64,000 nt of DNA from Paludibacter sp. Lineage in GTDB: Bacteria > Bacteroidota > Bacteroidia > Bacteroidales > Paludibacteraceae. The stretch spans positions 1 to 64,000 of the forward strand of contig JAQVAV010000012.1 of assembly GCA_028690665.1 (NCBI GenBank), in the 5' to 3' direction. Position numbers and translations under genes: made by a program. This document shows, one piece after another, positions 52,577 through 59,813 of this stretch. The notes under the pieces were generated by a model, which saw only the letters and a program-made list of their open reading frames with translations, did no database searches and had not been told where the DNA came from. Every line of letters starts with the position of its first letter. The first letter of the stretch is position 1.

Positions 52577-54451
52577 ATGGATTTTAAATACGATGTAATT
52601 GTTATAGGAGCCGGACATGCAGGCAACGAAGCAGCCTGTGCTGCCGCCAATATGGGCTCAAAAACATTACTTATAACAATGGATATGAACAAAATCGGGC
52701 AAATGAGCTGCAATCCTGCTGTAGGAGGAATTGCCAAAGGCCAGATTGTTCGGGAAATAGATGCACTCGGAGGGCAAATGGGAATTGTAACCGATCGTTC
52801 AGCCATACAATTCAGAATGCTAAACCGTTCAAAAGGACCAGCCATGTGGAGCCCTCGTTCACAAAGCGACAGACATCAATTTATTCAGGAATGGATTAGA
52901 ACAGTAACAAATACTCCAAATTTAAACATCTGGCAAGATACCGTCAAACAACTTATTATCGAAGAAAACGAAGTAAAAGGAGTCATTACTTCCCTTGGAA
53001 TTGAAATGCATGCACAATGTGTCATCCTTACAGCAGGAACATTTTTAAGCGGATTACTCCATATAGGCAGAAATAAAATTATAGGAGGACGTATTTCAGA
53101 ACCGGCTTCGTTTGGAATCACAGAGCAGCTAAGATCCTTAGGCTTTACTACCGACAGAATGAAAACTGGAACTCCGGCACGTCTTGACGGACGCACTATT
53201 GATTTCAGTAAAATGACTGAGCAAATCGGAGAAAACGATTATCATAAGTTCTCTTTTATGCCTGATATAAAAAGAGAATTAAAGCAAATGAGTTGTTGGA
53301 TAACATACACTAACGAAAAAACACACGAAGAACTGCGCAAAGGGCTACCCGAGTCTCCTCTTTACAACGGACAGATTCAAAGTATCGGGCCAAGATATTG
53401 CCCAAGTATAGAGACAAAGATTATAACATTTGCAGGCAAACCAGCTCACCAACTTTTTCTTGAACCGGAAGGAGTCGATTCCCAGGAATATTACATTAAT
53501 GGATTTTCGTCTTCACTTCCCATCGATGTTCAAATTAAAGCTATTCATACCATAACCGGATTAGAGAATGTACAACTTTACAGGCCTGGTTATGCCATTG
53601 AATACGATTATTTCGACCCGACACAGCTAAGCCATACCCTTGAAACAAAAAAGATAAAAAACTTATTTTTTGCAGGGCAGGTAAACGGAACTACCGGATA
53701 CGAAGAGGCTGCAGGACAAGGTTTGATAGCCGGTATAAACGCACATATAAATTGTCATGGTGGTGAGCCTTTTGTTCTGGGAAGAGACGAAGCATATATT
53801 GGAGTTTTAATAGACGATTTAGTAACAAAAGGAGTAGATGAACCTTACAGAATGTTCACCTCAAGAGCAGAATATCGGTTGATATTAAGGCAGGATGACG
53901 CAGACATCAGACTGACCGAAAAAGGATACCAAATAGGATTAGCAACAGAAGAACGATACCAGAACCTGATTTCAAAGCAAAAAATTCAAAATCAGCTAAT
54001 CGATTTCATCAAGACTTATTCTGTAAAACCAACGTTTGTAAACGACTTTCTAAAATCTGTAAATTCTGCTCCACTTAAATTTGGATGCAAACTCCACGAT
54101 CTCATTGCTCGTCCCCAATTCGGCATCAACGAACTGGCAACGGCAGTACCTGCTTTCCAAAAAAGATTGGATGCAATATCAGACAGACGGGAAGAAATTA
54201 TTGAATCGGTTGAAGTAATATTGAAGTACGAAGGCTATATTGAACGGGAAAAACAAATCGCAGAGAAGCTACAAAGGCTCGAACACATTCCGCTAAGAAA
54301 CCGCGTTGACTATTCAAAAATACTATCGTTATCGACAGAAGCCAGGCAAAAACTAATAAAGATAAATCCTGAAAACATTGGGCAAGCAAGCCGGATTCCG
54401 GGAATTTCACCCAGCGATGTAAACGTATTATTAGTACTTTTGGGAAGATAA
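52577..54451 (+). CDS. mnmG: tRNA uridine 5-carboxymethylaminomethyl modification enzyme MnmG (GidA)
   Basis: A 624-residue FAD enzyme that works with MnmE to modify the wobble uridine of certain tRNAs. The FAD-binding GAGHAG motif is at 11-16, and the family motifs CNPAVGGIAKG, MLNRSKGPAMWSPRSQSD, DRMKTGTPARLDGR and FFAGQVNGTTGYEEAAGQGL are all present. Length is typical. The start at 52577 fits the promoter. Just after the stop codon lies a pair of parS-like sites. Confidence 0.97.
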   Translation: MDFKYDVIVIGAGHAGNEAACAAANMGSKTLLITMDMNKIGQMSCNPAVGGIAKGQIVREIDALGGQMGIVTDRSAIQFRMLNRSKGPAMWSPRSQSDRHQFIQEWIRTVTNTPNLNIWQDTVKQLIIEENEVKGVITSLGIEMHAQCVILTAGTFLSGLLHIGRNKIIGGRISEPASFGITEQLRSLGFTTDRMKTGTPARLDGRTIDFSKMTEQIGENDYHKFSFMPDIKRELKQMSCWITYTNEKTHEELRKGLPESPLYNGQIQSIGPRYCPSIETKIITFAGKPAHQLFLEPEGVDSQEYYINGFSSSLPIDVQIKAIHTITGLENVQLYRPGYAIEYDYFDPTQLSHTLETKKIKNLFFAGQVNGTTGYEEAAGQGLIAGINAHINCHGGEPFVLGRDEAYIGVLIDDLVTKGVDEPYRMFTSRAEYRLILRQDDADIRLTEKGYQIGLATEERYQNLISKQKIQNQLIDFIKTYSVKPTFVNDFLKSVNSAPLKFGCKLHDLIARPQFGINELATAVPAFQKRLDAISDRREEIIESVEVILKYEGYIEREKQIAEKLQRLEHIPLRNRVDYSKILSLSTEARQKLIKINPENIGQASRIPGISPSDVNVLLVLLGR

Positions 54452-54460
54452 AAAAAACAT

Positions 54461-54518
54461 AGAAGTGTTTCACGTGAAACACTTCTATCACACAAAACAA
54501 AATGTTCCACGTGAAACC
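54461..54518. other. parS: pair of parS-like sites between mnmG and uvrC
   Basis: TGTTTCACGTGAAACA at 54466-54481 is the exact consensus of bacterial parS, the ParB-binding centromere, and lies inside a longer perfect palindrome of 26 bp (54461-54486). TGTTCCACGTGAAACC at 54503-54518 differs from it at two positions and matches the relaxed consensus TGTTNCACGTGAAACM. Centres are 37 bp apart. The second site is followed at once by the uvrC ATG. The window has no parA or parB gene, so function is inferred from the site only. Confidence 0.85.
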
Positions 54519-56342
54519 ATGAACAAAACAGACAAATTAAAGATACAAATTGAAAGCTTACCAGATAAGCCTGGGATCTATCAATACTTTAATTTAAAGG
54601 AAGAGGTTATATATGTCGGCAAAGCTAAAAATCTAAAAAAACGGGTATCTTCTTACTTCAACAAGAAACATGATTCAAGCAAAACGAATATCCTTGTAAA
54701 AAACATTTCATACCTAAAATATATTACTGTAGAAAGCGAGGAGGATGCTCTCCTACTTGAAAACAACCTAATTAAAAAATACCAACCCAGATACAATGTT
54801 TTACTTAAAGATGGTAAGACCTACCCAAGCATTTGCATCACTAATGAATCATTTCCCCGCATTTTTAAAACAAGAAATATTATAAAAAACGGGTCTAAAT
54901 ACTATGGGCCATACAGTTCAAACTACACTATAAATTCTTTGTTAGATATAATACATCAACTTTATCCTATCCGAACATGTAGACTTCCATTGAATATAGA
55001 TTCCATTAAAAATAAAAAATTTAAAGTTTGCCTCCAATATCATATTCACAAATGTAACGGGCCTTGTGAAGGCAAAGAAAATATTGAAGAATATAGAGAA
55101 CACATAGAAAATGTAAAGAAAATCATTGAAGGTGATGCCAATGAAATCAGCAAAATTCTTCATCAGAATATGTTGCAATACTCATCAGAATATGATTTCG
55201 AAAAAGCATACGAACTAAAACAAAAGCTTGAACTTATAGAAAACTATAAATCCAAATCTATTGTTTCAAATACCATTTTGGATGAAACGGATGTTTTTGC
55301 TTATGATGAAGATGATGCAAGTGCCTATATCAATATTCTCAGGATTCACAAAGGTTGCATTGTTCAGGGATATACCATAGAATACAAAAAAAGGCTCAAT
55401 GAATCTAAAGAAGATATTTTAAGTTTGGCAATCATTGAACTCAGGGAAAAGTTACAAAGTACATCAAAAGAAATCGTTCTTCCGTTCAAAATAGAAACAG
55501 CTCTAAACGGAATTAAAACATTTATACCGATCAAAGGTGACAGGAAAAAACTTCTTGATTTGGCAACTCAAAACGTCAAACAATTTAAACTCGACAAATT
55601 AAAACAGGCAGAAAAGCTAAATCCGGATCAAAAAGCCATACAACTTCTTGAGAAAATAAAAGATATTCTGAAGTTAGAAAAACTACCCATGCATATTGAA
55701 TGCTTTGACAATTCCAACATTCAGGGAAGTGATGCAGTAGCCGCTTGTGTTGTATATAAAAAAGGAAAACCTTCAAAAAAAGATTACAGAAAATATTCTA
55801 TTAAAACAGTGAGCGGACCAGATGATTATGCCTCTATGAAAGAAGTTACTTTCAGAAGATACAAAAGAATAATCTCAGAAGGATCCGAACTTCCAGACCT
55901 CATAATTGCAGATGGAGGTATTGGCCAAATGGAAATGATACGCCAGGTGGTAGAGGACGAACTCAATTTGCATATTCCAATTGCCGGACTTGCCAAAAAC
56001 GACAAACACAGAACAAATGAAATTATAATCGGATTTCCCCCTCAAATAATAGGCATGAAAGTTAACGATCAAATTTTTAAATTCTTTGCCGGAATACAGG
56101 AAGAAGTTCATAGATTTGCAATAAAGTTTCATAGAGAAAAAAGAAGTGCCCATCAGACAGAATCTGAATTAGACAAAATCTCTGGCATCGGGAGTAAAAC
56201 AAAAGAACTATTATTCAATCATTTTAAAAGCACAAAAAGAGTTAAAAAAGCATCATTAAATGATATCGAAAAAATCATAGGAAAATCAAGAGCAACAATT
56301 ATTTACAATTATTTTAACCCAAATTCAAACTCTGAGAATTGA
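54519..56342 (+). CDS. uvrC: excinuclease ABC subunit UvrC
   Basis: A 607-residue DNA repair nuclease of the UvrABC system, which makes the two incisions around bulky lesions. The GIY-YIG nuclease domain is at the N-terminus (GIY at 19-21, YVG at 32-34), a UVR motif is near 230 (EKAYELKQKLELIEN), the RNase H-like endonuclease domain follows (HIECFDNSNIQGSDAVAACVVY, DLIIADGGIGQ), and a C-terminal HhH region ends it (ISGIGSKTKELLFNHF). The frame is open back to a GTG at 54465, but that stretch is the parS pair, so the ATG at 54519 is taken. Confidence 0.96.
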   Translation: MNKTDKLKIQIESLPDKPGIYQYFNLKEEVIYVGKAKNLKKRVSSYFNKKHDSSKTNILVKNISYLKYITVESEEDALLLENNLIKKYQPRYNVLLKDGKTYPSICITNESFPRIFKTRNIIKNGSKYYGPYSSNYTINSLLDIIHQLYPIRTCRLPLNIDSIKNKKFKVCLQYHIHKCNGPCEGKENIEEYREHIENVKKIIEGDANEISKILHQNMLQYSSEYDFEKAYELKQKLELIENYKSKSIVSNTILDETDVFAYDEDDASAYINILRIHKGCIVQGYTIEYKKRLNESKEDILSLAIIELREKLQSTSKEIVLPFKIETALNGIKTFIPIKGDRKKLLDLATQNVKQFKLDKLKQAEKLNPDQKAIQLLEKIKDILKLEKLPMHIECFDNSNIQGSDAVAACVVYKKGKPSKKDYRKYSIKTVSGPDDYASMKEVTFRRYKRIISEGSELPDLIIADGGIGQMEMIRQVVEDELNLHIPIAGLAKNDKHRTNEIIIGFPPQIIGMKVNDQIFKFFAGIQEEVHRFAIKFHREKRSAHQTESELDKISGIGSKTKELLFNHFKSTKRVKKASLNDIEKIIGKSRATIIYNYFNPNSNSEN

Positions 56343-58793: not shown

Positions 58794-59813
58794 ATGGGAT
58801 TATTTTCATTCACACAGGAAATCGCTATTGACCTTGGAACAGCCAATACCATAATTATTCACAACGATAAAATTGTTGTTGATGAACCATCTGTAGTTGC
58901 ACTCGACAAACGCTCCGACAGACTTATTGCTATTGGCGAACGAGCACGCCAAATGCAGGGCAAAGAAAATGAAGGAATCCGAACCGTCAGACCTTTAAGG
59001 GATGGCGTGATTGCCGACTTCTACGCTGCAGAATTAATGATTCGTGGCATGATTAAAATGATCCCCACGAAAAGTAAACTCTTCTCCCCTTCTCTGAAAA
59101 TGGTTGTTTGTATTCCGTCAGGAAGTACTGAGGTTGAGATTCGTGCTGTCCGTGACTCCTCTGAACATGCCGGAGGACGTGAAGTTTACATGATTTACGA
59201 GCCTATGGCAGCTGCTATAGGGATCGGTATTGATGTTGAAGCTCCTACGGGTTGTATGATTGTTGATATTGGGGGAGGAACTACCGAAATCGCGGTCATT
59301 TCTCTCGGAGGAATTGTATCCAACAAATCTATTCGTATCGCCGGAGACGACCTTACAACTGATATTGTTGAATATATGGGGCGTATGCACAACATCAAAG
59401 TAGGTGAACGAACTGCTGAACTTATTAAAATTAATGTTGGTGCAGCTCTTACTGACCTGGAAGATGCTCCGGAAGACTATATTGTTCACGGACCAAACCG
59501 CATGACTGCGCTTCCGATGGAAGTTCCTGTTTCATATCAGGAAATTGCCCATTGTTTAGAAAAATCAATTTCTAAAATTGAAGCAGCAATCCTCAGTGCA
59601 CTTGAACAAACTCCACCAGAACTTTATGCCGATATTGTTCAAAAAGGTATTTATTTAGCAGGTGGTGGAGCATTACTTCGCGGTTTGGATAAACGTTTGA
59701 CCGATAAAATCAATATCCCGTTTCATATTGCAGATGATCCGTTGAGAGCAGTTGCACGTGGAACAGGCATTGCACTTAAAAATGTAGATAAATTCTCGTT
59801 CTTAATCCGATAA
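58794..59813 (+). CDS. mreB: rod shape-determining actin-like protein MreB
   Basis: A 339-residue actin-fold ATPase that guides cell-wall elongation. The phosphate-1 motif IDLGTANTIIIH, the phosphate-2 motif IVDIGGGTTEIAVISLGGIV and the adenosine motif GIYLAGGGALLRGLD are all present. It starts with the short amphipathic FSFTQEIAI segment that binds membrane. It leads the mreB-mreC-mreD-mrdA-rodA cluster, with a hairpin before mreC. Confidence 0.98.
   Translation: MGLFSFTQEIAIDLGTANTIIIHNDKIVVDEPSVVALDKRSDRLIAIGERARQMQGKENEGIRTVRPLRDGVIADFYAAELMIRGMIKMIPTKSKLFSPSLKMVVCIPSGSTEVEIRAVRDSSEHAGGREVYMIYEPMAAAIGIGIDVEAPTGCMIVDIGGGTTEIAVISLGGIVSNKSIRIAGDDLTTDIVEYMGRMHNIKVGERTAELIKINVGAALTDLEDAPEDYIVHGPNRMTALPMEVPVSYQEIAHCLEKSISKIEAAILSALEQTPPELYADIVQKGIYLAGGGALLRGLDKRLTDKINIPFHIADDPLRAVARGTGIALKNVDKFSFLIR

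Follow-up and report, generated by a model that had tools for sequence, protein, structure and literature searches.

Between mnmG and uvrC in a Paludibacter genome lie two closely spaced sites, very probably the chromosomal parS (centromere) of a ParABS system, to which ParB is predicted to bind. The pair is ordinary in kind; what makes it interesting is its conserved address next to mnmG. The window (the whole 64,000-nucleotide stretch analysed) comprises bases 1–64000 of contig C18 (136,978 bases), which belongs to a 4.05 Mb draft assembly in 29 contigs. Both sites fall between the mnmG stop codon (54449–54451) and the uvrC ATG (54519–54521), and the features concerned are listed below.

54466..54481, no strand assigned: parS site A, the exact 16-bp consensus TGTTTCACGTGAAACA; sole exact match in the assembly
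54503..54518, no strand assigned: parS site B, TGTTCCACGTGAAACC; 14-bp core intact, abuts the uvrC ATG
54459..54488, no strand assigned: perfect 30-bp palindrome centred on site A; its 7-bp extension at either end is not conserved among relatives
52577..54451, + strand: mnmG (gidA), TIGR00136, 825.7 bits; parS is tied in position to this gene
54519..56342, + strand: uvrC, TIGR00194, 527.7 bits; downstream neighbour
59750..59765, no strand assigned: weak parS-like match with 2 mismatches, within mreB (codons AVARGTG); the coding sequence probably explains the likeness

Judged by eye from the ORF translations, positions 1–40000 of the window hold glycan-degradation gene clusters (SusC/SusD-like proteins and glycoside hydrolases).

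Sequence and rarity of the two sites

The 16-bp palindrome of chromosomal parS, TGTTNCACGTGAAACA, is present at site A, and site B departs from this degenerate consensus at one position. Relative to site A, site B carries two substitutions, with the 14-bp core GTTYCACGTGRAAC unchanged, and the centres of the two sites are 37 bp apart. A first-pass annotation of this DNA had described the exact consensus, the second site and their spacing in these same terms, and all three descriptions hold. It had also placed site A within a 26-bp palindrome; the palindrome is real, and its perfect length is 30 bp.

A search of the whole 4.05 Mb draft for other parS sites returned site A as the only exact copy, where approximately 0.0015 exact copies would be expected per genome (base-composition estimate). 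Within the window, eight matches with three or fewer mismatches were found (both strands counted, five places), against a mean of 2.48 in shuffled sequence, and none of 100 shuffles reached eight. Two-mismatch matches elsewhere in the assembly were near background (all matches, 9 forward/8 reverse versus 1/6 for the reversed control). Over the length of contig C18, the 14-bp core with up to two mismatches matched only once beyond sites A and B, within mreB; this candidate third site was set aside, as its AVARGTG codons probably account for the likeness. Nothing was found in favour of chance palindromes in AT-rich intergenic DNA, and it is extremely improbable that the pair represents them, given both the expected number of copies and the conservation beside the same gene in relatives (below). 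The parS pair at the mnmG–uvrC junction is not a product of chance.

ParABS proteins and the position of the origin

A parA–parB pair, which the first-pass annotation had proposed looking for, was found in the same genome on contig C4, so a ParB homologue is present. The ParB passes the TIGR00180 model (188.1 bits, cut-off 58.45); a second TIGR00180 match on this contig (8891–9085) was weak and under the cut-off. All NCBIfam matches of ParA were under their curated cut-offs, and its probable identity rests on similarity and on its position beside parB. In alignment with solved structures of ParB, the protein retains the Arg of a GKxR motif and the Gly of a GHAR motif. Matched by eye, these would be the equivalents of R173 and G201, two residues described in the available text of PMC7383237 as invariant in ParB but different in Noc. 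Against the Noc model TIGR04285 the protein scored 233.3 bits, under the cut-off of 315, and it has Arg/Gly instead of the Gln/Arg of Noc; judged on this protein and the weak second match, the sites do not qualify as Noc sites.

Across the order, ParB was found in 139 of 149 genomes. The motif could be read in 28 of 35 related ParB loci, using a pattern that itself demanded Arg and Gly or Ala and is therefore no gauge of how conserved these residues are. In the one-contig relative G133, the ParB (L293) has Ala in place of the GHAR Gly, and the two parS sites of that genome, 22 bp apart, both end in C. The ParB of G115 has GNH where most other ParBs read have ANY, SNY or TNY, a possible co-change with the parS variant of that genome.

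An SMC_N profile search saw no full-length SMC in the genome. The matches over the cut-off were ORFs of 559 and 364 aa, read as RecN-like/RecF-like, and a 480-aa open frame. Because full-length SMC was not seen, the usual SMC-loading role of parS may be absent.

In the available text of PMC7333895 and PMC7022226, parS is an established marker of the origin region for most bacteria, and the first-pass annotation had expected the locus to be origin-proximal and suggested GC skew as a check. Neither dnaA (contig C16) nor parB (contig C4) lies on C18 with parS; an origin beside dnaA or parAB was rejected, as this assembly shows no such link. GC skew along C18 is negative over the first ~50 kb, then close to zero or mixed until ~98 kb and mostly positive beyond, with the stretch between 50 and 98 kb noisy and strongly negative at 83–88 kb. 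Three TTATCAACA boxes and one variant occur at C18 95303–95623, in AT-rich intergenic DNA adjoining nadA, close to where the skew turns; a DnaA-box cluster this dense arose in 0 of 200 simulated contigs, the box having been chosen after the region was seen. Skew and DnaA boxes on this one contig of a 29-contig draft place the likely origin at C18:95.2–95.7 kb (L012 15200–15700), beside nadA and not dnaA, approximately 41 kb from parS. As the first-pass annotation had anticipated, the locus thus looks origin-proximal, although dnaA is elsewhere.

Two relatives were compared. G133 supports an origin-proximal location, with six copies of TTATCAACA at 1,652,489–1,652,881, a local skew turn there and parS 20 kb away; skew samples farther off in that genome varied in sign. 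In Parabacteroides gordonii, where skew is too noisy for a firm placement of the origin, a likely turn falls at ~2.34 Mb and parS at 2.25 Mb, ~90 kb from this putative origin.

Several of these features are shared with the chromosomal parS of Bacillus subtilis Spo0J, Caulobacter and Pseudomonas: the 16-bp consensus, an origin-proximal location, ParB with the specificity Arg and Gly, and parA and parB in the genome. Unlike in those systems, parAB and dnaA are not adjacent to parS here, two closely spaced sites occur at one gene, and full-length SMC was not seen. Also close are the parS sites predicted in Bacteroides caecimuris and Muribaculum intestinale (PMC10197239), whose available text likewise reports sites near a skew-defined origin, an origin not always at dnaA, and no condensin homologue found in these two Bacteroidetes. 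That work differs in allowing two mismatches and in using Hi-C, and mnmG is unmentioned in the available text.

Conservation beside mnmG

We sampled 149 genomes of the order, taken to be Bacteroidales from the named UvrC relatives (below), including the source genome, and located mnmG in 136. An exact parS was present in 95 of the 149, while the reversed control pattern occurred in none. In 90 of those 95 genomes mnmG had an exact site no more than 600 bp away, only 3' of the gene in 73, only 5' of it in 7 and on both sides in 10. The five exceptions were G071 (site on another contig), G063, G104 and G086 (0.6–3.4 kb away) and G130 (mnmG not found). Exact sites sat close to the gene, with 57 of 100 on the 3' side at 0–14 bp past the mnmG stop and 13 of 22 on the 5' side at 8–21 bp before the first aligned mnmG residue.

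The 54 genomes with no exact site frequently carried a diverged one. A one-mismatch site was found in 36 (control match in 3/54), and in 29 of these it was within 600 bp of mnmG, that of G111 lying apparently inside a partly matched mnmG. Sites with altered outer bases or altered palindromes were still by mnmG in G115, G001, G125, G121 and G144; where the sequence has drifted to TGCTCCACGTGGAGCA (G115) or GTTTTCACGTGAAAAG (G001), the variant remains by the gene. Both variants are palindromic and occur twice near mnmG, at L288 3403–3418 and 3445–3460 in G115, and at L286 2162–2177 and 2762–2777 in G001. Five ParB-positive genomes (G017, G079, G087, G120 and G131) had no good site by mnmG within the sequence searched.

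A site with at most one mismatch within 600 bp of mnmG was, among genomes with mnmG, more frequent in ParB-positive than in ParB-negative ones (115/128 v 4/8; Fisher P = 0.009). The four ParB-negative genomes with such a site (G011, G033, G034 and G061) speak against the parS reading but perhaps reflect assembly gaps. G144, also ParB-negative, carries a pair of perfect 14-bp cores beside mnmG, and only G057, G077 and G091 are ParB-negative with no core there. Joint loss of ParB and parS is therefore a weak proposition, since G144 keeps two cores and some of the ParB-negative calls may be due to assembly gaps. Among the 128 order genomes with both genes located, mnmG and parB shared a contig only in G133 (~53 kb apart) and G143 (~233 kb apart), a count limited by draft contigs. 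In 41 hand-collected tandem pairs, that of the window among them, considered with no control, spacings of 35–40 bp (14 pairs) and 43–49 bp (8 pairs) were suggestive of a preferred tandem distance.

Beyond the order, a phylum sample had the exact site in 72 of 99 genomes, with a control match in one. Places were available for at least 44 genomes listed outside one over-represented family; among those 44, the site was within 600 bp of mnmG in 41, and G212, G220 and G173 were without it.

We also examined named mnmG–uvrC junctions, using the best 80 of 238 loci matched by the UvrC query, all of them named. Paludibacter and other Bacteroidales were the closest named relatives. Seven loci had no mnmG upstream in the stretch examined, leaving 73 mutually non-independent loci, of which 71 had a junction site with two or fewer mismatches. 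These 73 loci held 99 sites in 40 kb of junction DNA versus 14 in the 501 kb outside it. Of these 14 off-junction matches, twelve were at ~+964 to +982 of uvrC (L198, L195, L193, L203, L202, L205 and L191), and the codons spelled PFHVE in seven of eight read; this could be a coincidence of the coding sequence or a further parS inside the gene.

The two genes were more than 500 bp apart in 45 of the 73 loci, and in 40 of these 45 the first site was no more than 80 bp from the mnmG stop. As first sites mostly stay by the mnmG stop where the genes are far apart, the tie is mainly to mnmG. A second site nearer uvrC was found in seven loci (L185, L187, L190, L196, L197, L199 and L209), and L161 had a single junction site, on the uvrC side. 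The first-pass annotation had assigned site B to the start region of uvrC, ending at its ATG. That is so in this genome, where the last base of the site (54518) directly precedes the ATG, but not as a conserved trait: among the 15 close relatives whose junction is short and holds a second or uvrC-side site, that site ends 9–47 bp before uvrC (hand-worked). We therefore rejected site B as a conserved element of the uvrC start.

Competing readings and the proposed role

The first-pass annotation had suggested that the palindrome could also fold as a terminator of mnmG, and a stronger form of this idea would make it an intrinsic terminator with its parS likeness secondary. The site A hairpin, with 13 pairs and −16.6 kcal/mol (z −5.7 against shuffles), fits such a role, but a T-tract is present only on the minus strand and none follows the hairpin on the mnmG strand, so the arrangement of hairpin then U-tract on the transcribed strand is absent. 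Among 133 related 3' sites, a T-rich stretch lies just downstream at 26 (with no control), and a few relatives have long arms, e.g. L018 and L113 (15-bp extensions); against this, the arms past the 16-mer are absent at 98, and the conserved part is the parS core. With the T-tract on the opposite strand and the hairpin extension not conserved, the suggestion does not stand here, and we regard terminator function as the primary identity of the palindrome as very unlikely. The few long arms and the T-rich downstream stretches indicate that terminators around parS may have formed in single lineages. One candidate for such a terminator follows mnmG at ~1501 of L113, with parS at the centre of a 46-bp palindrome that has a T-rich tail.

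The tight placement against mnmG on both its sides would also suit a local ParB operator for mnmG or uvrC, with segregation secondary, and in the available text of PMC7022226 genes beside two intergenic parS sites are repressed in Pseudomonas aeruginosa. The same text reports B. subtilis genes beside parS sites as unchanged, and the site lies 5' of mnmG in some genomes and 3' of it in others, which argues against an operator. Regulation could, moreover, coexist with segregation. We consider a mainly regulatory role improbable, though less so than a terminator.

The identity of the sites as chromosomal parS, as the first-pass annotation had proposed, is supported by the exact consensus, the parA–parB pair and the conservation beside mnmG. 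By analogy with established ParABS biology, the C4-encoded ParB would bind both sites as a dimer at their GTTYCACGTGRAAC core, load as a CTP clamp and slide onto neighbouring DNA. ParA would then move the ParB–DNA complex, together with the newly copied origin region ~40 kb off, to the daughter cell.

The genes gidA (mnmG), gidB, parA and parB are among those of a possible ancestral origin cluster in the available text of PMC2099444; in contrast to that arrangement, here mnmG keeps parS and parAB is on another contig. We infer that in Bacteroidota parS stayed with mnmG and parAB moved elsewhere. No report of a parS–mnmG link was found in the literature searched, of which coverage was partial. 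The survey of Livny et al. 2007 is reportedly the standard one for parS.

A broader proposal, which we put forward tentatively and with less than even confidence, is of a Bacteroidota centromere tied to mnmG, with parS mostly tens to a few hundred bases away and parAB and dnaA elsewhere, at an address that may be selected and not merely inherited. A fixed address may arise if the ParB clamp must spare neighbouring essential genes, or if it tunes mnmG and uvrC. For a large phylum where ParABS is little studied in the literature searched and no canonical SMC is evident, the finding supplies a centromere address that is precise and testable. A parS by mnmG could mark the origin in draft Bacteroidota genomes, where dnaA is an unreliable guide.
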